The notes under the pieces: model-generated | Databases searched by the model: none | The model's input: only the letters and a program-made list of their open reading frames with translations | What the model was told of the DNA's origin: nothing | Part shown: in pieces, positions 7,249 through 22,272 of the stretch | Layout of the letters: every line of letters begins with the position of its first letter | How positions within the stretch are numbered: position 1 is the first letter of the stretch | Program-made: the position numbers and the translations under genes | Assembly (NCBI GenBank): GCA_021808485.1 | Contig: JAKBBN010000031.1 | Location: 1-35,051 of the forward strand | DNA from: Planctomycetota bacterium | GTDB lineage: Bacteria > Planctomycetota > Phycisphaerae > WQYP01 | Direction: 5' to 3' | DNA: 35,051 nt

Positions 7249-7520
7249 TGGTTTACCTCGTTGGTTTTATGGGCCAGCCTATCTCAGACTCAAAACTTTC
7301 AATTGCAGTTTTGGACTGATTTCAAGGCGATATGATAGCCGAAAATAGCGAGTTTGCGGACCTCTATCTATGATGCGATCAATCATCGCCCGGTTGTTTT
7401 CATGATTATGAAGGACAACTTTTGCGGAAAGCATAATCAAATTGGAATGCGGCAAGCGCAAAAGAAGACAGAAAGTGACAAAGTATTGATGGTGAAAAAC
7501 ACCAAATAGCCCGAACATTG

Positions 7521-7549
7521 TTGACGGAAAAATGGCTCGGCATTAGTAT
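7521..7549 (+). promoter_or_regulatory. sigma-70-like promoter of the ACIII/oxidase operon
   Basis: TTGACG (7521-7526), a 17-nt spacer and TAGTAT (7544-7549). Transcription would start near 7556, about 88 nt upstream of the actA ATG and just ahead of the leader stem-loop. It is the only strong promoter seen before this operon. Confidence 0.7.
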
Positions 7550-7564
7550 CTTCAAAACTTTGTG

Positions 7565-7606
7565 CAAACTTTCACAACCTGCCGGCTGGCGGATTGGGAA
7601 AGTTTG
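7565..7606 (+). promoter_or_regulatory. long stem-loop in the actA 5' leader
   Basis: CAAACTTTC (7565-7573) pairs perfectly with GAAAGTTTG (7598-7606). The inner part continues the stem as CAA/TTG, CC/GG and GCC/GGC around a GGCT loop, with one mismatch and two single-base bulges, 17 pairs in all. It starts about nine bases after the predicted transcription start and ends 37 nt before the ATG. There is no T tract after it, so it is not a standard terminator; mRNA stabilisation or a protein/RNA binding site is possible. Confidence 0.6.
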
Positions 7607-7643
7607 AGGTTGGTGCAATAACGAATTGGGACAGCGGCCACAA

Positions 7644-8354
7644 ATGAGCGACAGACCATTTTTCGTATTTCCGCGGTGGTCAGATACCGCCACCAAAATT
7701 ATTCTGGCGGCGGCGGTTCTTATCCCTGTCTACTTGGTCATATTGCTCGGTTATGGGGCTAATGCGCGAACATTGAATGTTAACTATCAGCCGATACAGC
7801 CCGTTGCCTATAGTCATGCCTTTCATGCCGGAAAATTGGGCATTAATTGCCAGTATTGCCATACCGATGTGAAGCGTGCTGCATTTGCGGCTCTCCCCCC
7901 CACCCAAACGTGCATTAATTGCCACGCGGCCATTGCACCGCATAGCGCCGCTTTGGCGTGGATCCGTAAAAGTTACAAAACCGGCATGCCGGTGCCCTGG
8001 AAAAAGGTCAATGACCTGCCTGACTATGTTTATTTCAACCATGCCGCACACGTGAATGCCGGCATCAGTTGCCTGATTTGCCATGGCCATGTGAACGAAA
8101 TGACACAGGTGTACCAGGCCAAGCCGCTGAATATGGCTTGGTGTTTGCAGTGCCATCGTGACCCGGCCCCATTCCTCCGGCCGCGAAATGAGGTAACAAA
8201 TCTGAACTGGACACCCGCCAACAAAACCCGATTGGCCAAGGACCTTGGACTGACAACCGCGACATTGCCGAAGAATTTGGGCAAATATCTGGAGAAGCGG
8301 TATCACATTCCCAATAGCAAGCTTTTAACGGATTGCGAGTTATGTCATCACTGA
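7644..8354 (+). CDS. actA: alternative complex III pentaheme cytochrome c subunit ActA
   Basis: Electron-transfer subunit of ACIII, the quinol:electron acceptor oxidoreductase that replaces the bc1 complex. The 236-aa protein has one N-terminal membrane helix (about 18-38) and then a periplasmic domain with five CxxCH heme c sites: CQYCH 69-73, CINCH 90-94, CLICH 143-147, CLQCH 167-171 and CELCH 231-235, the last ending the protein. Additional histidines (H58, H61, H133, H136, H149) can serve as distal ligands. Five hemes match ActA of characterised ACIII complexes. The start ATG 7644 is preferred to an in-frame TTG at 7626; no strong ribosome site is seen. Its end overlaps the actB start by 13 nt, so translation is probably coupled. 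Confidence 0.95.
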   Translation: MSDRPFFVFPRWSDTATKIILAAAVLIPVYLVILLGYGANARTLNVNYQPIQPVAYSHAFHAGKLGINCQYCHTDVKRAAFAALPPTQTCINCHAAIAPHSAALAWIRKSYKTGMPVPWKKVNDLPDYVYFNHAAHVNAGISCLICHGHVNEMTQVYQAKPLNMAWCLQCHRDPAPFLRPRNEVTNLNWTPANKTRLAKDLGLTTATLPKNLGKYLEKRYHIPNSKLLTDCELCHH

Positions 8355-11300
8355 GCGATCAGAATCTGACCGGTAAGGAATATTGGCGAAGCCTCAACGA
8401 ATTGGCTGACACGCCGGAGTTTAAGGAATTCGTCCGCAGGGAGTTTCCGAACCGCGCGTCGGAATGGATGAATGCCGACCGCAGACGCTTTCTAAAAATC
8501 ATGGGCGCCTCATTCGCCCTGGCCGGACTGGCCGGCTGCCGTCGCTGGCCCGCCGAAACGCTGGCCCCCTATGCCCATCGACCGGCAAACCGTGATCCCG
8601 GCACCCCTGTCTATTATGCCACCGGCATGGATATCGGCGGTATTGGCCAAGGTATGCTGGTAACCAGCGTGGATGGCAGGCCCATTAAAGTTGACGGGAA
8701 CCCCACTCATCCTCTTAACAAAGGCGCCAGCGATTTGTATGGTCAGGCCAGCGTGCTGGGCGTTTATGACCCGGATCGCAGCCGCACGGTGATGCGCAAA
8801 GGGAAGGCCGGCCTGGAACAAAGCAGCTGGGAGAATTTTTCCGCTGCGTGGCGGCAAATCGGCGGGGAATTGAAGAACAATCAGGGCAAGGGTCTGGCGA
8901 TTTTGACAGGGGCCTCTTCTTCCCCAAGCGTGGAAGCCATGCTGAAACGGACGGCGAATGAATTTCCCGCGGCACGTTTCTATCAATACGAGGCAATTTC
9001 CTGTGACAATGAGCGTGCAGGCACCACCATAGCCTTCGGAGAGCCATTGCGTGCGGTTCCGCAACTCGGCAAGGCCAGGGTTATTGTTTCGCTGGATTTT
9101 GATTTTGTGGTTGGAGACCCGCTTTCCGTAAAACTGGCCCGCGATTTTTCCGCGGGACGGCAGTTAACCAATCCTGTCACCGGCGAAAATGCGACGGAAA
9201 TGAACCGTCTGTACGTTATAGAATCGACCTTTACCGCAACTGGTTCGCTGGCGGAAAATACACTGCATCGTATTCCCGTACCGGCCCAGGACGTGGCAGT
9301 TGCGGCATTGGCTATTGCGACGGGCCTGAAAAAGCACGGACTTGATGTTCCAGAATTGCCCGGACTCGGTGGTGCGATCCCTGAACCGATTCGGCAGAAG
9401 GTCATTGACGCAATTGTCGCCGATCTTCTGGCACATCGGGGACAATGCGTGGTAATCGCCGGCAGCCAGCAGTCGCCGGCGGTACATACTCTGGCCGCGG
9501 TCATTAACAGCGCGCTGGGCAACACGGGCAAAACCGTGGACTATTACCGCCCTCCTGCAACCAATGATTCGACTGATGGGCAATCCATTACCAACCTGAC
9601 CACGGCATTACGGAATAAAGAAATCAGCACACTGGTCATGCTGGATGTTAACCCGGTGTACAATGCGCCGGCAGACCTGGATTTTGCCTCCGCACTGGCC
9701 GGCGTGCCGCAAAGCATACAACTCGCAAATTATGTGGATGAAACCGCCCGCTTGTGCACATGGCATCTGCCGGCGGCCCACTACCTGGAAAGCTGGGGAG
9801 ACATCCGCACATTTGATGGAACAGCCAGCATTGTTCAGCCAATGATTGAACCAATTTTTGGCGGCAAAAGCGTGATTGAAACGCTGGCCATGCTTTTGGC
9901 CGGTGCCGCAGGCCAGGCGAAGACCAAAACTTCAGGGTATGAAATTGTTCAGCAGACGCTGGGGCTTAAGGCGGGCCAGTGGAAATGGAAAAAAGCCCTG
10001 TTTGACGGCTATGTTGAAAATAGCGGCTGGTCCGCGTTGACACCCGTTTTGGCCTCGCGTATTGCCCATGTCCTGCCCCAGGTAATGGATGCCCGGCCGC
10101 GGGCGGAATTAAGCGTTGGAAATCTTGAGGTCGTGTTCCGTCCGGATAACAAAATGTATGACGGCCGCTATGCCAACAACGGCTGGCTGCAGGAGTTGCC
10201 GGATCCGATGACACGGCTGACTTGGGACAACGCGGCGGTAATCAGTCCAAAACTGGCCAAGACCCTTGGATTGACTTTTCATAAAACAGAGTTGATCTCC
10301 ATTACGGTCGGCGGAAAAACCTTGAAAATGCCGGCATATATCATGCCGGGACAGCCCGAATTTTCCATTTCCCTTCCACTGGGTTACGGACGATCGGAGG
10401 TGGGATCGGTGGCGGATGGCGCCGGGTTCAACGTGTACACCCTGCGAACCACGGCGGCGATGAATTTTCAAGCTGGTGCGACCGTCAAACTGACCGGTGA
10501 ACACTATGAACTGGCCAACACACAGGATCACTTTGCCATAAGCACGCTAAGCCAGGAAACCGTTGCGGCACGCATTCCAGATTTGATTCATCAGGCGACA
10601 TTTGCCGAATTGCAGAAAGACCCCTCCCTGGGTCATAAAAAGGCAAAAGCGGTCTCACTATGGGAAATGCACCATTATGACACGGGATACCAGTGGGCGA
10701 TGGCCGTGGACCTTACCACTTGCACGAGTTGCTCGGCTTGTGTGGTGGCGTGTCAGGCGGAAAACAACATTCCGATTGTGGGCAAGCAGCAGGTGATAAA
10801 CGGCCGCGAAATGCAGTGGCTGCGAATTGACCGCTACTTTCGCGGTCCCGACGCCATTTCACCCGAAGCGGTGCATGAACCGATTTTGTGCATGCAATGC
10901 GAAAACGCGCCGTGCGAGGCGGTCTGCCCGGTGGGCGCCACCAGCCACAGCGCCGATGGTTTAAATATGATGACATACAACCGGTGCATCGGCACGCGTT
11001 ATTGTGCCAATAATTGCCCGTACAAAGTCCGCCGGTTCAACTTCTTCGACTATAACAGCGGTTCACTCAAAAACCTGTATGAACCGAATATTCTGCGATC
11101 CAACATGAATGATCTGGTGGCGATGCAGAAAAATCCGCAGGTTTCGATCCGGATGCGCGGCATCATGGAAAAGTGCACCTACTGCATTCAACGAATTGAC
11201 GATGCCCGTGTGACGGCCGAACGGCAAAACCGCCGGATCCGTGACGGTGAAATTACACCGGCATGTTCTCAGGCGTGCCCCACGCAGGCGCTGGTGTTCG

Positions 11301-11473
11301 GCGATATGCGCGATCCGAAATGCCGGGTGGCTCAATTGTTCAAACAACCGCGAATATACGGCATTCTGAATGATGATCTCAACACGCGCCCGCGCACGCG
11401 CTATCTGCCGAAGATCAGCAATCCGAATCCGTCGCTTGTGGCGATGGAGAATTGGCCGCTTGGTTCGCAGTAA
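8342..11473 (+). CDS. actB: alternative complex III iron-sulfur/molybdopterin-like subunit ActB
   Basis: 1043-aa fusion typical of ActB. A TAT motif RRRFLK (47-52) is followed by a hydrophobic stretch and LAGC (Cys66), so the protein is predicted to be TAT-exported and possibly lipid-anchored. Residues ~80-750 resemble the molybdopterin oxidoreductase fold; in ACIII this part carries no molybdenum cofactor. The C-terminal ferredoxin-like domain has the cluster motifs CTSCSACVVAC (794-804), CMQC (850-853) with CEAVCP, CIGTRYCANNCP (from 882), CTYC (945-948) and CSQACP (from 975), matching three 4Fe-4S clusters and one 3Fe-4S cluster known for the family. These would carry electrons from quinol toward the ActA/ActE hemes. 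Start ATG 8342 lies inside the actA end. Confidence 0.96.
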   Translation: MSSLSDQNLTGKEYWRSLNELADTPEFKEFVRREFPNRASEWMNADRRRFLKIMGASFALAGLAGCRRWPAETLAPYAHRPANRDPGTPVYYATGMDIGGIGQGMLVTSVDGRPIKVDGNPTHPLNKGASDLYGQASVLGVYDPDRSRTVMRKGKAGLEQSSWENFSAAWRQIGGELKNNQGKGLAILTGASSSPSVEAMLKRTANEFPAARFYQYEAISCDNERAGTTIAFGEPLRAVPQLGKARVIVSLDFDFVVGDPLSVKLARDFSAGRQLTNPVTGENATEMNRLYVIESTFTATGSLAENTLHRIPVPAQDVAVAALAIATGLKKHGLDVPELPGLGGAIPEPIRQKVIDAIVADLLAHRGQCVVIAGSQQSPAVHTLAAVINSALGNTGKTVDYYRPPATNDSTDGQSITNLTTALRNKEISTLVMLDVNPVYNAPADLDFASALAGVPQSIQLANYVDETARLCTWHLPAAHYLESWGDIRTFDGTASIVQPMIEPIFGGKSVIETLAMLLAGAAGQAKTKTSGYEIVQQTLGLKAGQWKWKKALFDGYVENSGWSALTPVLASRIAHVLPQVMDARPRAELSVGNLEVVFRPDNKMYDGRYANNGWLQELPDPMTRLTWDNAAVISPKLAKTLGLTFHKTELISITVGGKTLKMPAYIMPGQPEFSISLPLGYGRSEVGSVADGAGFNVYTLRTTAAMNFQAGATVKLTGEHYELANTQDHFAISTLSQETVAARIPDLIHQATFAELQKDPSLGHKKAKAVSLWEMHHYDTGYQWAMAVDLTTCTSCSACVVACQAENNIPIVGKQQVINGREMQWLRIDRYFRGPDAISPEAVHEPILCMQCENAPCEAVCPVGATSHSADGLNMMTYNRCIGTRYCANNCPYKVRRFNFFDYNSGSLKNLYEPNILRSNMNDLVAMQKNPQVSIRMRGIMEKCTYCIQRIDDARVTAERQNRRIRDGEITPACSQACPTQALVFGDMRDPKCRVAQLFKQPRIYGILNDDLNTRPRTRYLPKISNPNPSLVAMENWPLGSQ

Positions 11474-11551
11474 GCAGGATTTACCGCCGCGAAAGGACAA
11501 CGAACGCCCGCGGCATTTAAGATTGTTCAGGAAAGACCGGGAATTGAACCC

Positions 11552-12982
11552 ATGACGTTAGCAGTGAATGAAGTTTCCGTGCCTGTCGATTTTGACAATA
11601 CCGGCGAGGATATCATTCATCCTCCGGTGCTGATGACCGGCGAGGCGAGCTATAAGCGCGTGACAACCCTTGTCAGCCGCATTATTGAAGCTCCCAAGGC
11701 GCCGGCAATCTGGTATCCGTGCTTTTTCCTTTCGGCCGGGCTGGCCGGATTGCTCTTTGCGCTCATTGGATATGAAGTTTTCACCGGCGTGGGCGTGTGG
11801 GGGAACAATTCACCCCAGGGCTGGGGATTCCCCATTATTAATTTCGTTTTTTGGGTGGGTATTGCGCATGCCGGCACACTGATTTCGGCGATTCTGCTGC
11901 TGTTCCGCCAGAAGTGGCGCACCGGTATTAACCGCTTTGCCGAAGCCACGACGGTGTTTGCCGTCGTGTGCGCGGGAATATTTCCGGGGATTCACGTCGG
12001 CCGGCCGTGGTTTGCATATTGGTTGGCGCCTTACCCGAACATCATGGGCGACTGGCCGAATTTTTACAGCCCGCTGCTGTGGGATGCCCTGGCGGTTGGA
12101 ACGTATACCACCGTGAGCGTTCTGTTCTGGTATCTGGGAATGATCCCGGATCTGGCAACATTACGTGACCGGGCCACCACCCGTTTTCGTCACACGGTTT
12201 TCGGCATTCTAAGCATGGGTTGGCGTGGATCGGCAAGGCATTGGAAAATATATGATCGGGCATTGCTGGTGATCGCCGGTCTGGCAACTTGCCTGGTCAT
12301 GGGCGTGAGTTCAACGGTCAGCACGGACTTTGCTGTTTCGCAAATCCCCGGCTGGCATGAAACCATATTTCCGCCGCTGTTCACCGTGGGCGCTATTTTC
12401 AGCGGCTTTGCCACGATCCTTTTTCTTGCTTATCCGGTTCGCGCGATTTTCGGGCTTAAAAGCCTGATCACGGATCGCCATCTGGACAACGTAGCCAAGA
12501 TCACGCTGTTTATGGCATCCATCGTATTCTATATTTACCTGATCGAATTCTTTACCGCCTATTACAGCGGCAGTACGATGGAACGTTATGTGTACCTGAA
12601 CTGGATGTTCGGCCCCTATTGGTGGGCAGCCTGGGCCATGCTGGTGTTTAACGGCGTGATTCCGCAGGTGCTGTGGTTTAAAAAGGCCCGCAAAACGTGG
12701 TGGATCGCCGCCCCCGTCGGCCTGTTCTGTCTGGCCGGTATGTGGTGCGAACGGTTTGTCATTATTATTTCCTCGATTACACATGATTTTTTGCCGTCAT
12801 CGTGGCATCATTTCGTGCCGACATGGGTTGATTACGGCATGCTGGCCGGCAGTTTCGGCCTGTTTTTTACTCTGTTCCTGTTGTTCTGCCGGTTTGTGCC
12901 GGTGGTGGCCATGTATGAGGTAAAAAGCATTCTGCCGCAGTCGCACGTGCATTTGCCCAAAGCGGCTGGAGAAAAAAAATAA
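11552..12982 (+). CDS. actC: alternative complex III membrane subunit ActC (NrfD/PsrC family)
   Basis: 476-aa polytopic membrane protein of the NrfD/PsrC family, with about ten predicted helices, for example ACFFLSAGLAGLLFALIGYE-like and FVFWVGIAHAGTLISAILLL segments. In ACIII this subunit holds the quinol-binding site facing the periplasmic side and touches ActB. The FWVGIAHAGTLISA segment and H residues near it match the quinol region described in the family. It follows actB after 78 nt with no terminator, and is paralogous to ActF further downstream. The start is the first ATG of the frame; a clear ribosome site is not seen. Confidence 0.94.
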   Translation: MTLAVNEVSVPVDFDNTGEDIIHPPVLMTGEASYKRVTTLVSRIIEAPKAPAIWYPCFFLSAGLAGLLFALIGYEVFTGVGVWGNNSPQGWGFPIINFVFWVGIAHAGTLISAILLLFRQKWRTGINRFAEATTVFAVVCAGIFPGIHVGRPWFAYWLAPYPNIMGDWPNFYSPLLWDALAVGTYTTVSVLFWYLGMIPDLATLRDRATTRFRHTVFGILSMGWRGSARHWKIYDRALLVIAGLATCLVMGVSSTVSTDFAVSQIPGWHETIFPPLFTVGAIFSGFATILFLAYPVRAIFGLKSLITDRHLDNVAKITLFMASIVFYIYLIEFFTAYYSGSTMERYVYLNWMFGPYWWAAWAMLVFNGVIPQVLWFKKARKTWWIAAPVGLFCLAGMWCERFVIIISSITHDFLPSSWHHFVPTWVDYGMLAGSFGLFFTLFLLFCRFVPVVAMYEVKSILPQSHVHLPKAAGEKK

Positions 12983-13044
12983 GCGGAGCCGTGTGACTTG
13001 CGCCAAAATAACCGCAATGACTTTGAATGCGGACGGATAAGATT

Positions 13045-13617
13045 ATGACAACGATTGCAACAAGTTCCTCCAGTGCCGGTTCTGAGCACGCCGGCCTTTT
13101 CGGCGTGCTGGCTGAGTTCGACGGGCCTCAATCCCTCGTGGATGCGGCGGCCAACATCCGCACGGCCGGCTACAGGCGCTGGGATTGTTATACCCCCTTC
13201 CCCATTCACGGCTTGGACAAGGTCATGGCCATTCCAAGGTCCATTTTGCCGATGGTGGTTGCCGGAGCCGCGGCTTCCGGAGCGATCGGGGCGCTGGCCC
13301 TGGCTTGGTTTTGCAATGCCTACGACTATCCGATGATCTTTTCCGGCAAACCGTATTGGGGGCTGCCGGCCCACACCGCAGTCGCCTTTCCCGCGCTGGT
13401 ACTTTCCGGTGTGGTCACATCGTTCATGTGTGTTTTTGTATTTTGTGCATTGCCGCGATTTCACCATCCGCTGTTTGAAATGCCGCAGTTCCGGCGGGTT
13501 ACGGACGACGGCTTTTTTCTGGCGATTGAAGCCACGGACCCCTGCTTCAGCCCCGTTAACACGGCCGAATTGCTCCGGTCGCTGGGAGCTGTGAGTGTGG
13601 AACTGGTGAAGGACTGA
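13045..13617 (+). CDS. actD: alternative complex III subunit ActD (DUF3341 family)
   Basis: 190-aa protein with a soluble N-terminal domain (GLFGVLAEFDGPQSLVDAA, and the TPFPIHGLDKVM stretch that marks DUF3341) followed by two membrane helices (about 75-95 and 120-145) and a short C-terminal domain. ActD is a structural subunit of ACIII located at the cytoplasmic side in solved complexes, without cofactors. The in-frame ATG at 13027 has no ribosome site; GGACGGA precedes ATG 13045 at suitable distance, so the latter is used. It lies between actC and actE, the usual place, and its stop is three bases before actE. Confidence 0.92.
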   Translation: MTTIATSSSSAGSEHAGLFGVLAEFDGPQSLVDAAANIRTAGYRRWDCYTPFPIHGLDKVMAIPRSILPMVVAGAAASGAIGALALAWFCNAYDYPMIFSGKPYWGLPAHTAVAFPALVLSGVVTSFMCVFVFCALPRFHHPLFEMPQFRRVTDDGFFLAIEATDPCFSPVNTAELLRSLGAVSVELVKD

Positions 13618-13620
13618 AGT

Positions 13621-14388
13621 ATGAATCGAAAAGCGACACTTTTTTTTCTTATTGGCAGCATTGTCATGGCGGCGCTGATTCCGTTGGCGGTCATTGCGGA
13701 TCGCCGCTACGAACGAACGGATATTCCGCGAATCGCGATTATTCCGGATATGGACAAAATGCCTTACCTTAAGCCGGAGCGCAGCAGCGATCTTTTTGCG
13801 GATCACCGCGGCATGAGGCCGCACATTCCCGGAACCATGGCCCGGGAAGATTTTATTTTCGACAATATGGCGGAACAGCGGGCGCATCCGAATAACTGGA
13901 AAAAGGACCATGTTGTACTGTCCAATGGAAAGCAGTTTCAGCGAGTGATGTACGGTCAGGTGCTTACCAACGGGCAGGCAAGCTTTATCAATCATATTCC
14001 GATTCCGGTCACTCGCAGGCTCATCGCCCGGGGAGAAGAGCAATTTGATATCTTCTGCGCTCCATGTCACGGTTATAACGGCCAGGGGAACGGCACCGTC
14101 AATATTTACGACAGCGAACTGCGTGCGGAAGGGGAGAGCCGGGAGGCCGGAACATGGGTGCAGCCGAGCAATCTGACGCTCATCGGCGTTCAGGCACTTC
14201 CGGACGGCGGCATTTACGATGTGGTGACCAACGGGATCGCGGCAATGGCGGCCTATAAGGACCAGATACCGGTCGTTGACCGCTGGGCTATTGTGTCCTA
14301 TGTCCGCGTGCTTGGTCTCTCACAAAAAAAAGTTCCGGCCTATCGGTTGCCCGCGACTGTGCGCACGGAACTAACGAACAGGAAATAG
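13621..14388 (+). CDS. actE: alternative complex III monoheme cytochrome c subunit ActE
   Basis: 255-aa protein with an N-terminal membrane anchor or signal (residues 8-25), a region containing MDKMPYLKPE that is typical of ActE, and a cytochrome c domain with one CAPCH site. The segment NGIAAMAAYKDQIPVVDRWAIVSYV supplies the likely axial methionine and the final helix of the class I fold. ActE accepts electrons inside ACIII and is a candidate exit point to the oxidase. A ribosome site GAAGGA lies in the end of actD, three bases separate the genes, and coupling is likely. Confidence 0.93.
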   Translation: MNRKATLFFLIGSIVMAALIPLAVIADRRYERTDIPRIAIIPDMDKMPYLKPERSSDLFADHRGMRPHIPGTMAREDFIFDNMAEQRAHPNNWKKDHVVLSNGKQFQRVMYGQVLTNGQASFINHIPIPVTRRLIARGEEQFDIFCAPCHGYNGQGNGTVNIYDSELRAEGESREAGTWVQPSNLTLIGVQALPDGGIYDVVTNGIAAMAAYKDQIPVVDRWAIVSYVRVLGLSQKKVPAYRLPATVRTELTNRK

Positions 14389-14446
14389 CATTGGTCCCGG
14401 CCGGCTGCCAGCATGAGCCCCGGCCGCTGACGGAGAAAAGCAGTTT

Positions 14447-15763
14447 ATGAATGATGCTTCCCAACAGATTATCAAGCTTGGTTCGCGCGATGAATTGTAC
14501 CTGCAAAACGCCGGCACGCGGTGGATGGGAATTTTCGCCGGTATCGGAATTGTCGCATTGGCGGCGGCATTCGGTGTTGGCGCATCGCTGCACGATCACT
14601 TAAGACAATTCTATTTCAGCTACCTTACCGCCTGGATTTTCTGCTTTGCCATCGCGGCCAGCGCCCTGTTTTTCGTCATCGGCCACCATCTGTTCAAATC
14701 AAGCTGGAGTTCGGTGGTACGAAGGCTGGCGGAAGGCCTTGCGGGAAATTTCGTGCCGCTGCTGGTTCTGTTTTTACCGATCATTCCTGGTATGCGACAG
14801 CTTTATCCGTGGATGAGCCGAATGTACATGAATTCATCGCCGGACCTGCACAATAAAATCGGCTTTCTGAATCCGCAGTTTTTTGCCCTGCGGATGGCTT
14901 TGTATGCCGCGGCTCTTATCGGGATCAGCCTGTATATGCGAAGCGCATCATTGCGACAGGATCAGGACGGCAAAGTCAAGCGGTTGCTGAATCTGCAATG
15001 GCATTCGGCTTGGTGCTATCTGACTATTTTCTGGGTTATCAATCTGGTCGGTGCGGATCTTGTGATGACGCTCCAGCCGACATGGATCAGTTATATTGAG
15101 CCGGCATTTTTCTTTGCCGCCACTGGAATGATGGTGTATGCGGTTTTGCCGCTGCTGGCAATGGCCTTGCAGGCCGGCGGCCGATTAAAAGACATTATCA
15201 CCGCGGAACATTATGAGGATATGGGTCGCTGGCTTTATGCCTGGGCGATGTTCTGGACCTATCTTGGGTTCGCCCAATACATGCTGATCTGGTATGCCAA
15301 CAAACCGGACGAAACGATGAACTATCTCATCCGTGACATGGGGCCGTGGGTGATCATTACGATCGTGCTGTTCCTCGGTCATTTTATAATCCCGCTTTTT
15401 GGAATGCTTCCGCGCCAGTGCAAACGCGTCAAGCCGCTGCTTGCGTTCTGGTGCATTTGGCTTTTGTTTTTCGGTTATCTGGACTTTTTTGAGCGGATAC
15501 AGCCGCAGGTCTGGTCCGCAACCGCCGCCGGGCGCAAGGCAATGGCCGGGGTGCATAAATTTAATCCATATGCCCTGCCGCACAGTCTGGCCGGCCTGGC
15601 ATGGATGCCGCTGCATCCAGCGGCACTTCTTACGAGCCTGCTTTGCCTGGTGGGACTGGTGTCATTGCTGCTGGCCCACACGTTTTACCTGTTACAAAAG
15701 GGAGCACTGCTCCCGATTCGAGATCCGAAACTACCAGAATCAATCGCATTTGAGAATTTTTGA
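14447..15763 (+). CDS. actF: alternative complex III membrane subunit ActF
   Basis: 438-aa polytopic membrane protein with about ten helices, homologous to ActC and to the NrfD/PsrC family but usually without a quinol site. Recognisable ActF traits are HHLFKSSWSSVVRRLAE, the MYMNSSPDLHNKIGFLNPQFF loop, WAMFWTYLGFAQYMLIWYAN and the IPLFGMLPRQCKR segment. In the complex it packs beside ActC and may take part in proton movement, which is not established. An ACGGAGAAAAG ribosome site precedes the ATG. The stop is eight bases upstream of the cytochrome c gene. Confidence 0.94.
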   Translation: MNDASQQIIKLGSRDELYLQNAGTRWMGIFAGIGIVALAAAFGVGASLHDHLRQFYFSYLTAWIFCFAIAASALFFVIGHHLFKSSWSSVVRRLAEGLAGNFVPLLVLFLPIIPGMRQLYPWMSRMYMNSSPDLHNKIGFLNPQFFALRMALYAAALIGISLYMRSASLRQDQDGKVKRLLNLQWHSAWCYLTIFWVINLVGADLVMTLQPTWISYIEPAFFFAATGMMVYAVLPLLAMALQAGGRLKDIITAEHYEDMGRWLYAWAMFWTYLGFAQYMLIWYANKPDETMNYLIRDMGPWVIITIVLFLGHFIIPLFGMLPRQCKRVKPLLAFWCIWLLFFGYLDFFERIQPQVWSATAAGRKAMAGVHKFNPYALPHSLAGLAWMPLHPAALLTSLLCLVGLVSLLLAHTFYLLQKGALLPIRDPKLPESIAFENF

Positions 15764-15771
15764 GGTGACCT

Positions 15772-16539
15772 ATGTCTGAATCGCATGACCAGAAACAGCA
15801 TCACGACCCAATAACCCACTCCCATCCGAAGTCCACTTCCAATGACGGCACGGATGCCAAGAGCATTATTATCGTCGGAACGTTTCTCGTATTGTTCGTA
15901 GCATTCCTAATTATTGCCGTCAGCGCGTATTTCCATCATTACCGCCACGAACTGCAAAGACAGCGAATGGCGAGCGTTGGGGATTGGGCGGCGAAGATTA
16001 AAGCCCGTCAACTTGCGGATTTGCGTCCCCACTGGGCCAACGCCGCACATAGCCAGGCCACTGTTGGTTTGAGGATGGCGGAGGACCTTTATCTTCGACA
16101 GTATTACCCATCTATGCCGCCAGTGTTGCTGGCTGCGAAGAAGACAGCCAAGAAGAAAGCCTCAGGCGCTCCGGTCGTCATGCATGTACTTGGCGCAAAG
16201 CTATATGTAAGCATGGGTTGTAATGCCTGCCACACCAACAATGGCAATCCGGGTGCCGGTCCGACTTGGAAGAATTTGGCTGGTTATCCGCAAACACTTA
16301 CCAATGGCAAAACCGAGATCGCGGACTATAAATATTTGAGATACATGATTCTGCATCCGGATAAGCTGGTGGTGAAGGGGTTTGCCCCAATTATGCCGCC
16401 TATTTACGCGGCGCAACTTTCCGGGCCAAGCCACCCGCATGAACAAAAACTCAACGCGCTCATCTGGTATATCAACACGCTGAGCAATAAATCGAATAAA
16501 GCATCTCAGCCGCCGGTTCCAGATAAACCCGCGAAATGA
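15772..16539 (+). CDS. membrane-anchored monoheme cytochrome c
   Basis: 255-aa protein with a short His-rich cytoplasmic N-terminus, one membrane helix (about 38-60) and a C-terminal cytochrome c domain (about 135-245). The heme site is CNACH (150-154) and the likely axial methionine is in GFAPIMPPIY. The domain is about 86% identical over ~72 residues to the second cytochrome domain of CoxB downstream, and more distantly like the first. It sits between ACIII and the oxidase genes, where some ACIII clusters carry an extra subunit or a small cytochrome, so an electron shuttle between the two complexes is a reasonable inference. The AGGTGA ribosome site is close to the ATG. Start is the first in-frame ATG. 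Confidence 0.88.
   Translation: MSESHDQKQHHDPITHSHPKSTSNDGTDAKSIIIVGTFLVLFVAFLIIAVSAYFHHYRHELQRQRMASVGDWAAKIKARQLADLRPHWANAAHSQATVGLRMAEDLYLRQYYPSMPPVLLAAKKTAKKKASGAPVVMHVLGAKLYVSMGCNACHTNNGNPGAGPTWKNLAGYPQTLTNGKTEIADYKYLRYMILHPDKLVVKGFAPIMPPIYAAQLSGPSHPHEQKLNALIWYINTLSNKSNKASQPPVPDKPAK
16190..16500 (+). repeat. cytochrome c domain repeat, copy A
   Basis: This coding repeat matches the domain at about 18755-19055 within coxB (copy B2) at roughly 80% of nucleotides in the aligned core, with most differences at third codon positions. Copy B1 at about 18315-18625 is more divergent. Figures come from reading the aligned stretches by eye. Confidence 0.75.
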
Positions 16540-16631
16540 TAAAATTGGTAGTGCCCAAAGCCACTGTCGTTACGGCACGATTTTCATGTGACAAAACCGG
16601 TCGCCTGGAAGAAATCGATGGGCAAACAGGT

Positions 16632-16637
16632 TATAAT
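16632..16637 (+). promoter_or_regulatory. possible internal promoter -10 box before sco
   Basis: The 183-nt gap between the cytochrome c gene and sco is the largest inside the respiratory operon. It contains a perfect TATAAT, but there is no convincing -35 box 16-18 nt upstream. It could be a weak internal promoter for the oxidase half of the operon. Confidence 0.25.
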
Positions 16638-16722
16638 TGTTGGCCCGGCGACGTAAAGGGTTGCCTGGAAAATTGAACGGTTTCTGCCGCATTTTGGGCA
16701 GGGTTCAGGGACGTAATGGGAC

Positions 16723-17589
16723 ATGTTCCAAGGCAGAACAATTTCAGTACTACTCATCTTTCTGCTGGCGACAGCTGCGTTGCCTGCTCGCTCATTATTT
16801 GCCGATTTTAATTCAATTCAGAATGCGGTGCAGCAATCGCGGCAAGCGGTGCAAGCCGGTATTACGCCCAAACCTGGCGCCCGGCTTCCCATGGGCGTTA
16901 TGTTTACGAACAGTCACGGTCAGCGGGTGAAGCTTGGTGATTATTTTCACAAAGGGCGACCGGTTATCCTTGACTTCGTTTATTTCCGCTGTCCGGGTGT
17001 TTGTAATTTTGTGCAGTCGGGATTGGTGCAATCACTCAATAAGATTCCGGCCCATATCGGCACGGATTACGACGTAATTACCATCAGCTTTGATCCAACC
17101 GATACACCCCATGCCGCGCAAACGAAAAAAGCCGGTTATTTGGTGGAGTCAAATGATGCCTCAGCTTTGAAGAAGCACTGGCACTTTCTGGTGGGCAGTG
17201 AATCGGCTATAAAAAAAGTCACGTCCGCGGTCGGTTTTCGCTATGTGTACTATCCGGCACTCGGCCAATACAACCATGCCGCATGCATTTATGTGTGCAC
17301 ACCGGGCGGCCGGATGTCCAATTACTTTTTTGGCATTAAATATAATCCGGCCAATTTGAACCTGGCCCTGGTGCAGGCGGGTGATCACCGCATTACCAAT
17401 ATTTTTGATCAAATTCTTCTGCTATGCTGCCAGTTTGATCCAAATACGGGAAAGTACACGCCGGTGGCACTGCGGGTTATGGCGCTGGCGGGTATTGCGG
17501 TGGTGCTGGGACTGGGAACCATGTTCGGTTCATTGTTTTACTGGGAACACAAGCATCGCCGACCCCCTGCTTCGGGAGCAAAATCTTGA
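16723..17589 (+). CDS. SCO1/SenC family copper chaperone for CuA assembly
   Basis: 288-aa thioredoxin-fold protein that delivers copper to, or reduces, the CuA cysteines of cytochrome oxidase subunit II. It has a signal peptide (residues 1-25), the copper motif CPGVC (90-94) and the third ligand His185 in NHAAC. A C-terminal membrane helix (about 245-265) follows a LLCCQFDPNTGKYTP stretch, a layout common in SCO proteins from ACIII/caa3 clusters. It lies directly before coxB, whose CuA centre is the expected target. The stop overlaps the coxB start in TTGA (17586-17589), so translation is coupled. Confidence 0.94.
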   Translation: MFQGRTISVLLIFLLATAALPARSLFADFNSIQNAVQQSRQAVQAGITPKPGARLPMGVMFTNSHGQRVKLGDYFHKGRPVILDFVYFRCPGVCNFVQSGLVQSLNKIPAHIGTDYDVITISFDPTDTPHAAQTKKAGYLVESNDASALKKHWHFLVGSESAIKKVTSAVGFRYVYYPALGQYNHAACIYVCTPGGRMSNYFFGIKYNPANLNLALVQAGDHRITNIFDQILLLCCQFDPNTGKYTPVALRVMALAGIAVVLGLGTMFGSLFYWEHKHRRPPASGAKS

Positions 17590-19085
17590 TTTTATCCAAT
17601 CTTCTTCAAACGCATGCGTCCCTGATCGGTCCGTTGTCAAAAATGGCGGGCGACTGGTGGTTGCCGAAAGGCGCATCCACGTTCAGCCCGGAAGTGCGGT
17701 TTCTCTGGATACTGTTCTTCTGTATTACCGTATTTTTTACATCCCTGATTGTGGTACTCACTGTTTTCTTTTCCATCCGATATCGCCGGACGGAAAACCG
17801 CCAACATGCGGATCCATCACCGGATCACAATACACCATTGGAAATTACGTGGACTGTCATTCCATTGATTATTGTCATGGTAATTTTTGCCCTTGGCTTT
17901 AAATATTACATGAATATGAATGTCCCCCCCACCAATACTTACAATATCGGGGTCAAAGCGCAAAAATGGTCATGGACATTCACCTATCCGAATCATGCGG
18001 TTTCCAAAACTCTGTATTTGCCGTTAAACCGGGCGGTTAAGCTTTCCATGACTTCCGCCGACGTTTTGCATGGATTCTGGATACCAAGCTTATCAATTCA
18101 AAAGGACGTTGTGCCCGGCCGCGTGATGACGATCTGGCTGGAGCCAACACGCGTCGGCCGTTACGAATTGCAATGTGCCGAATATTGCGGGGATGGACAT
18201 TCCCTGATGCGGTCTCCGGTGATTGTCGCGAGTCCCGCGAAATTCGCGGAATATCTTAAGGCGGCCGCCAATATCTGGGTGCATAACGGCAAAACACTCC
18301 CACTCGCCCAAGTTGGCCGGGAGTTATATTCCACGTATGGCTGCAACGGCTGCCATACCGCGGACGGTTCAATGGGGACCGGTCCGACCTGGAAAAACCT
18401 GGCGGGGAATCAGGTGCAGCTTGCCAACGGTCAGACGGTAACCGCCGACTATGCCTACCTGAGGCAGGCGATTTTGTATCCGGGGCGAAAACTGGTAAAA
18501 GGCTACGGCAATATTATGCCGGACTTTTATAACGACTTTGCGGGGCCGGGGCATACGCGCAACCGCCGGTTGAACGCAATGATCTGGTATATCAATTCGC
18601 TCAGCAACAAGGCTAATTCCGCATCGCAGCCGAAAATTCCCAACATTCCCGGAACAAAAGCGATGTCGGCGCCCGCGGCTGGTAAAGCGCCGGCAAAAAC
18701 AACGGCGGCATCCGGCGGCGCGAAATCGGCCTTGCCCGCGGCAACGGTGGCAATGGGTGAAAAACTGTATTCGACACTTGGCTGCAATGCCTGCCACACG
18801 AATAACGGCAAGCCAGGTGCCGGCCCCACATGGAAGAACCTGGCAGGCTACCCGCAGGCGCTTACCAACGGCAAAACCGAGGTCGCGGATTATAAGTACA
18901 TCAGGTATATGATTTTGCATCCGGATAAGAAGGTGGTGAAAGGTTTCGCCCCTATTATGCCGGCGATTTACGGTGCGCAACTCGGCGGCGCGGCGAATCA
19001 GAAAAAGCTTGACGCGATCATATGGTACATAAATTCGTTAAGTGACAAGCGCGGTCCATCGACAGAACCGCCGACAGGAAAATAG
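17586..19085 (+). CDS. coxB: cytochrome c oxidase subunit II with two C-terminal cytochrome c domains
   Basis: 499-aa caa3-type subunit II. Two membrane helices (about 37-60 and 80-105) precede the cupredoxin domain with the CuA ligands His162, Cys197, Cys201, His205 and Met208 ([12 protein letters not shown]). Two cytochrome c domains follow in tandem: CNGCH (253-257, Met in GNIMPDFY) and CNACH (400-404, Met in [10 protein letters not shown]), joined by an Ala/Pro/Lys-rich linker (about 355-385). Known caa3 subunit II proteins usually carry one such domain. The second domain closely matches the free cytochrome encoded at 15772. TTG 17586 is chosen as start because GGGAG lies seven bases before it and it overlaps the sco stop; ATG 17643 has no ribosome site. 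Confidence 0.93.
18315..19055 (+). repeat. tandem cytochrome c domains (copies B1 and B2)
   Basis: Within coxB, copy B1 (about 18315-18625) and copy B2 (about 18755-19055) encode the same fold with shared [18 protein letters not shown]-like and IMP motifs. B2 is much closer to copy A at 16190-16500 than to its neighbour B1. Confidence 0.75.
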
Positions 19086-19134
19086 TATTATTTACGCTGC
19101 TTCAGGGCGGCGGCGATTTTTAGGGAGTTATCCC

Positions 19135-20865
19135 ATGGCCACAATAAGTCTGCACGAAGCCGATGCTGCCGTCGGTAAACGGAAAAACTATCTTAACCAG
19201 ACGACAACGATACGGTCTTGGTTGTTTACGCTGGACCACAAGCGCATCGGCCTGATGTATCTTGCGGCCGGTCTGACGCTGTTCTTCATCGGCGGCATGC
19301 TGGCCGAGGTAATTCGGACGCAGTTGCTGGTGCCCACCGGCCTGATATTTCATGGGACGGGCACCATTCAATCGAGTTACGCGGCCTATAAACATTACAA
19401 TCAGGTGTTTACGCTTCACGGAATCATCATGGTATTCATGGTGCTGGTGCCGATGATTCCCGGCGCGCTGGGCAACTTTGCTCTTCCATTAATGCTGGGC
19501 GCCAAGGATGTCGCGTTCCCGCGGCTGAATTTGTTAAGTTTCTGGTTGTACATTTCCGGTGCGGTGCTGGCCGTGATCTCCACGATTATGGGAGCGGTGG
19601 ACACCGGATGGACATTTTACACGCCGTACAGCATTGATACGTCAACGTATGTCGTCCTGATGGTTTCCGGCATATTCCTGCTTGGATTCAGTTCCATTTT
19701 CACCGGTCTGAATTTCATCGTCACCATTCACAAGCTCCGGCCGTTCGGCATGACATGGTTTCGGATGCCGCTTTTCCTGTGGGCCACATACGCTACCGCG
19801 GTCATTCAGGTGGCGGCCACTCCCGTGTTGGGCGTAACGCTTCTTCTGCTGATCGTGGAACGTGTCATGGGGATCGGCATTTTTAATCCGGCGCTGGGCG
19901 GGAACCCCGTGTTGTTCCAGCACTTTTTCTGGTTTTACTCGCATCCGGCGGTATATATCATGATCCTGCCGGCCATGGGCATCATTTCGGAAATCGTACC
20001 GACCTTCAGCCGCAAACATATTTTCGGCTATGAATTTGTGGCGTTCAGTTCTCTGGCGATTGCATTAATCGGGTTTATGGTATGGGGGCATCACCTGTTC
20101 GTGAACGGACAATCCGCCGAGCTTGACGCCATATTCAGCTTTTTGACATTCCTTGTTGCCGTCCCCTCGGCCGTGAAGGTCTGGAACTGGCTTGCCACGA
20201 TGTACAAAGGCGCCATAAAGCTTGACACGCCGATGCTATACGCGCTGTCATTCATCATTTTATTCACCATCGGCGGTCTTACCGGCGTGGTGCTGGGCGC
20301 TTTGGCGGAGGATGTCGTCCTGCATGACACATATTTTGTGGTAGGACACTTCCATTACGTGATGTTCGGCGGAACAATTATCGCGATGCTCGGCGGCATT
20401 CATTATTGGTGGCCCAAGATGTTCGGCAAAATGTACAACGAATTCTGGGCCAGAACGGCGTGTATTCTGCTGTTTATCGGAGTGAACCTCACATTTTTCC
20501 CGCAGCTTATGGTGGGCGCTTACGGCATGCCACGGCGATATGCCAGCTATCTGCCCAAATATCAGCCCTACATGGTCGCTTCCACCATCGGCGCTTACGT
20601 GCAGCTTGTTGCGTTCCTTATCATGGCGTCCTATCTCCTCCATTCCCTGTTTCGCGGCAAAAAAGCGCCGGTAAACCCATGGGGTTCCGGTTCGCTGGAA
20701 TGGACAACCTCATCGCCGCCGCCCACGGACAATTTTGATACCATTCCGGTCATTGGCGACCATTATGATCCCTATGATTATTCCCATTTGCAGTTTGACC
20801 CGGCGATCGGCGGATACGTACACACGGAAGAGCATGTGGGGCCCCACCATGTGTATCATCGATGA
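19135..20865 (+). CDS. coxA: cytochrome c oxidase subunit I, A2-type heme-copper oxidase
   Basis: 576-aa catalytic subunit that reduces O2 to water and pumps protons. Twelve helices are expected. The ligands are present: His95 (heme a), His270 with the cross-linked Tyr274, His319 and His320 (CuB), His405 (heme a3) and His407 (heme a). Helix VI reads YSHPAVY, so the glutamate that ends the D-channel in A1 oxidases is absent and the Tyr-Ser motif of the A2 subfamily takes its place, as in caa3 oxidases found with ACIII. The K-channel lysine is present in VPSAVK. An in-frame start at 19042 would overlap coxB; ATG 19135 has GGGAG about nine bases upstream and begins family homology. Confidence 0.97.
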
Positions 20866-20874
20866 CCCGCCTGA

Positions 20875-20890
20875 CGTCCGCGGGCGGACG
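20875..20890 (+). promoter_or_regulatory. hairpin between coxA and coxC
   Basis: CGTCCG pairs with CGGACG around CGGG in the 89-nt gap after coxA. No T tract follows, so it is not a standard terminator; it may stabilise or separate the upstream message. Confidence 0.35.
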
Positions 20891-20954
20891 ATACGGAAAT
20901 GGAAAGCAAGCCGCGGCGGAATCGCGGCCCCATAATAGAAAGCAGTGAGTGACC

Positions 20955-21803
20955 ATGAGCGAAACAATCAGTCCGGCAGCAATGCCTGGGGTAGATCAGG
21001 CAGTGGTGCGAAAGCACCTGGCACATCACTTTGATACGCCGCAGCAACAGTTTGATTCCGGCAAGCTGGGAATGTGGTTGTTTTTAACCACCGAGCTTCT
21101 GCTGTTCAGCGGGCTGTTTTGCGCCTATGCCGTTTACCGGGCGTTGCATCCGGAAATTTTTCAGTTTGCATCCCAATACCTGGACCCGACCAGCGGCCTT
21201 ATCAACACCATTGTGCTGCTGACCAGCGGTTTGACCATGGCCCTTGCGGTCCGTTTTGCCCAGACCGGAAAAAGAACGCCGCTGTCCATCTGTCTGGTGT
21301 TGACGATGTTGTGCGGGCTTACATTTATCGCCATTCACGCCGACGAATACTTTGAGAAATACCAGCAAAAACTTTTGTGGGGCACCAACTACGCACCGAA
21401 GATTGTACAACCGGCGGTTAAGGCTGCCGCCGGGTCCCCTGGGACTTGGTCAAGCCTGAACCGGCTTGCCGCCCGCGGCTATATTTCCTCGCATTCAACC
21501 ATCGCCCCGGCCAGTATTGGACCGGCCGGTGTGGCGGCGGCCCATGCCGCGGCCCCCACAGTTCCGCTAATCCCGCAGCCGCATAACGTGCAGATATTCT
21601 TCGGCATTTATTTTTTAATGACGGGTTTGCATTCCATTCACGTGATCATAGGCGTGATTTTAATGGGATGGCTGCTGGTACGAAACATTCGCGGAGACTT
21701 TGGCCCCAACTATTACAATCCGGTGGACTTTGTCGGATTGTATTGGGGAATTGTGGATATGGTATGGATGTTCCTGTTCCCGCTGCTTTATTTAATTCGT
21801 TGA
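20955..21803 (+). CDS. coxC: cytochrome c oxidase subunit III
   Basis: 282-aa membrane subunit of the oxidase, needed for stability and proton uptake. It has the KLGMWLFLTTELLLFSGLF helix with the conserved Glu, FFGIYFLMTGLHSIHVIIG with the HxxH-like pair, and the terminal YWGIVDMVWMFLFPLLYL. An Ala/Pro-rich insert of about 70 residues (roughly 140-210) separates the central helices, longer than in most subunits III. The GTG at 20949 in the same frame is possible, but ATG 20955 is favoured by position after the preceding gap. It lies between coxA and coxD in the operon. Confidence 0.95.
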   Translation: MSETISPAAMPGVDQAVVRKHLAHHFDTPQQQFDSGKLGMWLFLTTELLLFSGLFCAYAVYRALHPEIFQFASQYLDPTSGLINTIVLLTSGLTMALAVRFAQTGKRTPLSICLVLTMLCGLTFIAIHADEYFEKYQQKLLWGTNYAPKIVQPAVKAAAGSPGTWSSLNRLAARGYISSHSTIAPASIGPAGVAAAHAAAPTVPLIPQPHNVQIFFGIYFLMTGLHSIHVIIGVILMGWLLVRNIRGDFGPNYYNPVDFVGLYWGIVDMVWMFLFPLLYLIR

Positions 21804-21831
21804 TCATACGCATTTAATCCCGGAGTTTACC

Positions 21832-22272
21832 ATGACCCATGACGCGCATAGTTCCATTGACCCGCATTCCTTGCCTCTCACGCCCGCCAAATCGCATATT
21901 GTGTCGATCCCCATGCTGGTTGCCGTGTGGGTGCTGTTGTGCGGTCTGGCCGTTCTGAGTACGTTCGTGGCGGCCGTGAATATCGGTTCGCTCAATGTGC
22001 TGGTGGAGATGGTCATCGCCTCCGTCATGGCCATTACGGCGGCTCTTTATTTCATGCACCTTAGATATGACAATCCTTTTAATATTGCCGCCATGCTGCT
22101 GACGCTCATTTTCATCACGTTGTTCATCAGTTTCTCCCTTACGGATACAACCGACTATCGAGCTGAATTGATTCCCGGCTACGCCCCCGCCATGCAACGG
22201 GCCGCCGCTGCCACTGCAGCCTCATCCGCTGCGGAGGCAAAATCCGCCGCATCCACGTCCGCGGCCAAATAA
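21832..22272 (+). CDS. coxD: cytochrome c oxidase subunit IV (prokaryotic type)
   Basis: 146-aa small membrane subunit with three helices (about 27-48, 55-75 and 84-102). The central helix ends YFMHLRYDNPFN, the hallmark of this family, which stabilises the oxidase. The C-terminal 30 residues are an Ala/Ser/Lys-rich tail with no recognised role. A CCGGAG ribosome site precedes the ATG. A small hairpin CGGGTG/CACCCG (22273-22287) begins right at the stop codon and may mark the operon's 3' end, though it lacks a T tract. Confidence 0.9.
   Translation: MTHDAHSSIDPHSLPLTPAKSHIVSIPMLVAVWVLLCGLAVLSTFVAAVNIGSLNVLVEMVIASVMAITAALYFMHLRYDNPFNIAAMLLTLIFITLFISFSLTDTTDYRAELIPGYAPAMQRAAAATAASSAAEAKSAASTSAAK

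Follow-up and report, generated by a model that had tools for sequence, protein, structure and literature searches.

A caa3-type cytochrome c domain on both a probable alternative complex III subunit and oxidase subunit II in a Planctomycetota locus, with support for gene conversion between copies

Introduction

How do electrons pass from alternative complex III (ACIII) to the oxidase beside it, and why would a bacterium carry related copies of one cytochrome c domain on both enzymes? A hand-over without a soluble carrier has been proposed, with the choice between ActE and a mobile head as the carrier left open (PMC8552683; this and the other papers are cited for the portions available). These questions are raised by a 35,051-nucleotide (nt) stretch of DNA from a Planctomycetota bacterium of the class Phycisphaerae (assembly GCA_021808485.1, 3.3 Mb in 147 contigs; contig JAKBBN010000031.1, positions 1 to 35,051 of the forward strand), referred to below as the window. 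It encodes three such domains: D0, at the C terminus of a 255-amino-acid (aa) protein, and D1 and D2, in tandem in oxidase subunit II (CoxB). An earlier note, made from the sequence of the window alone, took the first for a free cytochrome c and suggested domain copying or gene conversion and a longer electron wire from ACIII to CuA. We consider it probable (about 0.7) that the domain is shared by ACIII and CoxB, that D0 and D2 have been kept alike by gene conversion, and that together the domains form a tethered heme relay.

Results

The genes run in the order actA to actF, the gene for the 255-aa cytochrome protein, sco, coxB, coxA, coxC, and coxD, as identified from open reading frames (ORFs), Pfam, and NCBIfam, and all lie on the forward strand. 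Judged by its gene content, the locus is probably an ACIII-oxidase superoperon in which a caa3-type cytochrome c domain is present on both partner complexes. The D0 gene (15772 to 16539) begins 8 bases past actF, about 2.5 kb from coxB and in the same orientation, and its product has a single CXXCH motif, at aa 150. D0 itself (16168 to 16539; CXXCH at 16219 to 16233) matches Pfam Cytochrom_C (9.7e-6), and the best solved match of this half is 1w2l (molecule name, cytochrome oxidase subunit II; E = 3.5e-14), which we take to be the caa3 domain of Rhodothermus marinus. CoxB (17586 to 19085; 499 aa; CXXCH at aa 253 and 400) combines two transmembrane helices and a CuA domain with two C-terminal heme c motifs, as expected of a caa3/ccaa3 subunit II; it matches Pfam COX2_TM, COX2, and Cytochrom_C and scores 169.2 bits against the NCBIfam CoxB equivalog (cut-off, 147.7). 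Its transmembrane and CuA part (17586 to 18260; COX2_TM, 2.5e-8; COX2, 1.4e-16) has 2yev_B as the nearest solved chain and contains what we take to be the CuA ligand pattern. There follow D1 (18294 to 18641; CXXCH at 18342 to 18356), probably the original caa3 domain of CoxB, an Ala/Gly/Lys/Pro-rich stretch that reads as a linker (18642 to 18713), and D2 (18714 to 19082; CXXCH at 18783 to 18797; Cytochrom_C, 5.4e-11). The distal Met is present in all 79 domains compared below, which were cut at CXXCH, including both CoxB domains and all 22 copies of D0, and the hemes of D0, D1, and D2 are predicted to be working.

That these are three copies of one domain, two of them in tandem in CoxB, is borne out by alignment scores far above the maxima of 200 shuffles: 453 for D0-D2 (80/115 residues identical; shuffled maximum, 64), 336 for D0-D1 (61/111; 42), and 306 for D1-D2 (60/114; 53). 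D1 is the more divergent copy, as had been claimed, with 53 to 55% identity to either of the others. The figure of 62 of 72 core residues given for the close pair is exact (62 identical in the first 70 to 75 aligned columns from GCNACH on), and the special closeness of D0 and D2 is confined to this core. Their nucleotide differences do lie mainly at third codon positions (18, 7, and 45 at positions 1, 2, and 3, that is, 45 of 70 at the third). In the count of synonymous and nonsynonymous changes proposed earlier, silent sites are near saturation (pS, 0.71; dS, ~2.2; dN, 0.13), and dN/dS is not meaningful for D0-D2 because dS is saturated. The two copies resemble each other at the protein level but not at the DNA level.

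The N-terminal half of the D0 protein (15772 to 16167) has a His-rich N terminus and then, within its first 132 residues, one hydrophobic helix and no heme motif, followed by a region that in relatives forms a heme-less protein of its own. A hidden Markov model (HMM) of 22 such N-halves found 27 heme-less ORFs at E < 2e-3 among the 10,047 ORFs of the fetched loci (best, 6.8e-15); each of the 27 has sco or coxB within 2.6 kb downstream on its own strand, in loci that are mostly centered on coxB and in which its neighbors are over-represented. One of them (L127, a 444-aa long frame) was excluded from the models built afterwards. Conversely, an HMM of 26 heme-less stand-alone copies recovered all 22 D0 N-halves, with E = 1.9e-9 for the window and 0.023 for the weakest, which is truncated, but none of 1,100 shuffled or reversed controls. 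A member of this family fills the slot between actF and sco in all 27 loci that hold both genes. It is heme-less in all 10 loci without D0 (seven from other families, three from the family of the window) and carries the cytochrome domain in all 17 loci with D0. Six of the ten heme-less members came from the first model and four (L046, L047, L048, and L050) from an iterated model only, which did not contain these four (E = 3.6e-16 to 5.4e-10); the match in L050 is the end of a long frame overlapping actF.

A profile of stand-alone copies (A5; 16 rows, without the window) has 8k9e_G, a chain named ActG, as its top PDB match (E = 4.3e-4; next, 0.28), and chain G of 8k9e still leads when the window row is included (0.0042; next, 0.098). 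We take this chain to be from Chloroflexus aurantiacus. A C-terminal PID.AM motif is common to the slot family and 8k9e_G. The 132-aa N-half of the window alone gave no PDB match up to E = 5, and eight stand-alone copies gave no Pfam or NCBIfam match above cut-off. In C. aurantiacus, actG is the last gene of one act operon and stands just before SCO1 and COX genes in another (PMC3150298). The N-half is called ActG-like here because of this gene position and the top PDB match. A CXXCH domain is present in each of the 22 D0 proteins recovered, whereas ActG is expected to have no redox cofactor; the protein would combine an ActG-like subunit with a cytochrome domain rather than being a plain ActG, and the ActG name itself is one that we infer. 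The reading of the 15772 ORF as a free cytochrome c is rejected, as its N-half belongs to the heme-less family of the ActF-Sco slot.

In a tree of 79 domains and 124 columns, D0, D2, and a third type, X, form a clade (support, 99/97) that excludes D1 and the single-domain CoxBs. The D1 of the window groups with the D1 of genus g5 (95/83), near the single-domain CoxB of genus g11. D0 pairs with D2 in the window (99/98) and in g5 (98/86), and the D2 of g8 groups with the D0 of g11 (100/91). Approximately unbiased (AU) tests, run on few columns with groups chosen after the alignment and tree had been seen and with a long branch (0.58) for the D2 of the window, rejected all D2 as one clade (P = 1e-4), all D0 as one clade (P = 7e-4), and the D2 of the window with that of g5 (P = 0.0045); D1 plus the g11 CoxB as one clade was not rejected (P = 0.355). 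The domain phylogeny that the earlier note had called for supports its close pair. A tree of nine aligned proteins of the same loci has the form ((g6,g2),((g8,g11),(g1,g5),g3)), where g1 is the genus of the window; it comes from a quick search in which three rows were less than half filled, and support for g1+g5 is only 84.

When the D2 of the window was regrafted beside its own D0 or beside the g5 D2 and the site likelihoods were summed, its own D0 was better by 31.4 overall (AU P for the g5 D2, 0.019). By block, columns 0 to 22 favor the g5 D2 (-5.6), columns 23 to 93 the window's own D0 (+47.8), and the rest again the g5 D2 (-10.8). The best segment, columns 23 to 94, gives +47.7 log likelihood (lnL) units inside and -16.4 outside (P = 0.0022; 5,000 column permutations). 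The same test gave P = 0.0016 against the g8 D2 and P = 0.012, with a much broader segment (3 to 113), against the g3 D2. Read from these site likelihoods, D2 is a two-breakpoint mosaic: its core of about 70 codons (aa 401 to 470; 18786 to 18995) would have been overwritten from the corresponding part of D0 (aa 151 to 220; 16222 to 16431), and its flanks keep D2 ancestry.

Codon identity at identical residues has a mean z of 1.30 for D0-D2 (19 genomes), versus 0.22 for the control pair D0-D1 (19 genomes) and -0.27 for D1-D2 (20 genomes); it is 0.47 for D0-D2 within genomes versus 0.385 to 0.429 between genera. Fresher conversion tracts are present in three relatives, all from genera other than that of the window: G022 (z, 3.6; identical D0-D2 run of 25 nt, P = 0.0005), G013 (z, 2.8; 34 nt, P = 0.0015), and G007 (z, 2.4; 36 nt, P = 0.001). 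The P values of these runs survive correction for 19 tests. Two other genomes have D0-D2 z values of 2.5 and 2.3 without a long run (G012 and G019), two have negative values (G025, -1.16; G002, -0.25), and the control pair D0-D1 of G017 has a 20-nt run (P = 0.03). The AU tests, the mosaic, and the tracts in the three relatives support gene conversion between D0 and D2. The earlier suggestion of copying or conversion under protein constraint holds to that extent, but the window itself has no recent DNA-level signal.

The distribution of these domains was surveyed in 28 genomes of the family, including that of the window, by fetching the gene clusters and reading their ORFs. D0 was found in 22 of them. 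A diheme CoxB is encoded in 20 (one in g1, five in g2, six in g3, four in g5, two in g6, and two in g8) and a single-heme CoxB in five, with D0 in G010 and G016 (g11) and without it in G006, G008, and G009. An ordinary CoxB was not found in three genomes (G003, G021, and G027; completeness, 53, 76, and 67%). The family contains a series, with no D0 in g7, g9, and g10, D0 only in g11, and D0 plus D2 in g1, g2, g3, g5, g6, and g8. In seven loci from other families of the class, each CoxB has a single heme motif. From the phylum, 391 other genomes were drawn, of which 189 had a CoxB match at E = 1e-20; none of the 49 CoxBs read from outside the family (the 29 best matches and a further 20, chosen mainly because their frames are long) is diheme, each having one CXXCH after the CuA part. 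Among the matches listed, none from another genome extends past residue 408 of the CoxB query. Within this sample the diheme CoxB looks limited to part of the family of the window, and it is not the common form in the phylum that the earlier note had named as a result that would tell against it.

Several observations were made on related domains elsewhere in these genomes. The CoxB of g11 (L066, 8866 to 10080; L067, 6446 to 7528) has a D1-type core and a C-terminal tail nearly identical to that of its own D0 (INTLSNRS-KATRPPVP-KP in G010). Its sole domain favors D1 by +85 lnL in total, and the tail after column 108 leans to D0 (-11.6 lnL), possibly through exchange with D0 or through loss of D2 by D1-D2 recombination. 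In G022 (L059), D0 and D2 share LAGSHVKL instead of the LAGYPVKL of the genus, on the identical 25-nt stretch; D1 also has LAGSHVKL, and the exchange may reach D1. A third carrier is a multi-pass membrane protein with a C-terminal D0-like cytochrome domain, encoded directly after COX1 of a second heme-copper oxidase (L038, from G000 C40, 342 to 1370; L052, from G012, 7370 to 8278; L049, from G057 of another family, 4954 to 6063); a short COX2 precedes that COX1 in L052 and L049. A 423-aa frame in L051 (G003 C405, 552 to 1820), from an incomplete genome, may be a degenerate relative of CoxB: its C-terminal cytochrome domain is D2-like, and the region before it shows weak alignment to CoxB from around residue 115 onward.

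The ACIII genes of the window occupy 7626 to 15763, directly upstream of the D0 gene (starts: actA, 7626; actB, 8333; actC, 11552; actD, 13027; actE, 13621; actF, 14447), and form the full actABCDEF set of an ACIII. ActD has a Pfam match (3.3e-53), and ActE matches PDB 6f0k_E (E = 7e-25). ActA, ActB, and ActC have QrcA/B/C- and DsrP-type NCBIfam matches, all under cut-off, and ActF, for which Pfam and NCBIfam scans gave no match, is named by operon position only. ActA has five CXXCH motifs and is therefore without a sixth-heme head. A Sco/SenC copper chaperone gene (16723 to 17589; Pfam SCO1-SenC, 2.4e-8) lies between D0 and coxB, and the predicted TTG start of coxB at 17586 overlaps its stop (TTGA), which points to translational coupling. 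The coxA, coxC, and coxD genes of the same oxidase (19042 to 22272) were assigned by Pfam and NCBIfam. CoxA scores 651 bits, just below the CtaD_CoxA cut-off of 670.75; its listed GTG start at 19042 overlaps coxB, and an ATG at 19135 is likelier.

Discussion

The remark that caa3 subunits II usually carry a single domain is right, but two-heme forms have been described in other phyla. Such ccaa3 CoxBs are reported from Desulfovibrio, Shewanella, some Psychromonas, Colwellia, and Methylosarcina (PMC3899249) and from Pseudomonas KF707 (PMC5492768); those of Desulfovibrio vulgaris, Shewanella oneidensis, and Pseudomonas pseudoalcaligenes KF707 have, like the window, CuA and two C-terminal heme c motifs (PMC3899249, PMC5492768). 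The two c domains of S. oneidensis are 61% alike, which was interpreted as duplication (PMC3899249). The form in the window differs in occurring in Planctomycetota, in adjoining ACIII, and in having a D2 that is closer to D0, in another gene, than to the tandem D1. The available portions of the two papers mention no such partner domain and no gene conversion (PMC3899249, PMC5492768). The analysis goes beyond the earlier note in the ActG-like fusion and the mosaic and is weaker on two of its points, the diheme CoxB being a known form and the window having no recent copying.

In R. marinus, as in the window, ACIII genes are followed by caa3 genes, and a 20 A map of the supercomplex places ActE beside the cytochrome domain of subunit IIc (PMC5928083). 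Its subunit II has one c heme, however, and its ActG is predicted to be without a redox cofactor. The ACIII-aa3 of Flavobacterium johnsoniae resembles the window in its tethered extra c heme, an N-terminal head of ActA that has been suggested to carry electrons from ActE onward to the oxidase (PMC8552683). There the head is on ActA and replaces the c domain of the oxidase, whereas the heads in the window are on the ActG-like subunit and CoxB. ActG resembles the N-half of the D0 protein as a small membrane-bound subunit in the same gene neighborhood; it has 112 aa and no heme reported in the portions available, unlike the window protein with its C-terminal cytochrome c domain. Papers differ on the range of ActG: one regards it as confined to C. 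aurantiacus and lacking in R. marinus (PMC9316378), and another reports it in R. marinus (PMC5928083). The open-licence literature searched, in the portions available, held nothing on a diheme CoxB in Planctomycetota, an ActG-cytochrome fusion, or gene conversion of such domains.

The following course of events would account for these results. D1 would be the ordinary c domain of CoxB, beside CuA. A single duplication of this domain in the ancestor of a 23-genome clade would have given a copy that became fused to the C terminus of an ActG-like, single-helix ACIII subunit (D0) and was also placed behind D1 on a flexible linker (D2). D0 and D2 would then have exchanged repeatedly by gene conversion in several genera, weakly or not at all in g2 and g6, and D2 would have been lost in g11. 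Electrons would run from ActE through D0, D2, or both to D1, CuA, and CoxA by way of tethered heads, for which a soluble cytochrome c would not be needed, and use of the same docking surfaces would keep D0 and D2 alike. The domain architecture, the fusion in the ActF-Sco slot, the D0/D2/X clade apart from D1, the pairing within g1 and g5, and the mosaic of the window are established at the level of sequence. By analogy with the supercomplex of R. marinus and with the movable heme head on ActA in F. johnsoniae, a tethered relay, the longer wire from ACIII to CuA of the earlier note, is plausible. A more tentative extension, which we think possible but would not favor, is that the heads on ACIII and oxidase are interchangeable and are matched by recurrent conversion for homotypic D0-D2 contact or for swapping at a shared docking site.

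A number of points weigh against this account. Over the whole domain, the D0 of the window is slightly more similar to the D0 of G026, from another genus (70%), than to its own D2 (68%). D0 and D2 of g3 are separate clades in an unresolved group, the D2s of g2 and g6 sit on separate long branches, and the tail signatures have exceptions, with a D0-type tail on the g3 D2 and a D2-type tail on the g6 D0. The second head is dispensable in g11, which is without D2, and the two g11 genomes (G010 and G016) are metagenome-assembled. The match to 8k9e_G is weak and confined to the C-terminal part, and the ActG identity rests on it and on the slot. AlphaFold models from three-row alignments reached mean pLDDT values of 38 (CoxB) and 42 (D0) and are unusable for heme distances. 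Furthermore, the silent sites of the window are at chance level: 35 of 74 identical residues have identical codons (30.7 expected; z, 1.05), and the longest identical D0-D2 run is 14 nt (null mean, 14.1). Because of these two values the exchange in the window is old, not recent, and a recent conversion there, where silent sites are saturated, is rejected.

The saturated silent sites and chance-level codon identity of the window would also fit an origin of the likeness by parallel selection, in which D0 and D2 dock on the same partner and coevolve at the protein surface with no conversion in this lineage; a docking surface would be expected in the heme-bearing core, which is the stretch that they share. 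This explanation is conceivable for the window because its silent sites are uninformative, but we regard it as unlikely. The core is a single block of about 70 codons with both flanks going with the g5 D2 (P = 0.002), and the matching silent codons and 25- to 36-nt identical tracts of G022, G013, and G007 mean that DNA copying occurs at the D0-D2 pair. D0 and D2 of the window also share eight private residues (rare, <10%, elsewhere), a count eased by the single genome of this genus, whereas D1, in the same protein as D2, shares only one with D0 and two with D2. Other genera have zero to two for every domain pair, and the D0-D2 excess is seen in the genus of the window only (g8, 2; g3, 1; g5, 1; g2, 0; g6, 0), a further point against the favored account.

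Alternatively, CoxB could have acquired D2 from the local D0 gene on several separate occasions, in place of a single gain and later conversion. D2 is not one clade, g11 stands beside g8 in the cluster tree with neither D2 nor a remnant of it in the ~700 bases after its single-domain CoxB stop, and repeated gain would explain the tail of the g3 D2 as well. Set against these are the D2 tails of g1 and g5, which are alike (INSLSD, EPPT type) where the D0 tails of their own genomes differ, and the two flanks of the D2 of the window, which go with the g5 D2 in the site-wise test; a single gain with a single loss in g11 is also simpler on the cluster tree, and multiple gains are, in our judgment, not likely. 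It is quite improbable that D0 is spare or serves another enzyme, for example, by feeding a second heme-copper oxidase of its genome. A multi-pass membrane protein encoded after a second COX2-COX1 pair (G012 C44; in G000 C40, after a cut COX1) does carry a fused domain of this type, but that oxidase has its own copy, and D0 is fused to the protein of the ActF-Sco slot, in a gene that starts 8 bases after actF.

Under the favored account of a shared domain kept alike by conversion, a related heme head on both enzymes, similar in several genera, appears to be a shared part for electron hand-over. The arrangement also hints at a role for ActG, which may lie at a place from which an extra heme could reach the oxidase. 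The contact is testable by swapping or deleting single heads, and the natural series within one family (no D0, D0 only, and D0 plus D2) offers a ready comparison. If the heads were indeed interchangeable, the locus would encode a genetically enforced electron bridge, made of parts that a complex III-like gene and a complex IV gene exchange with each other.

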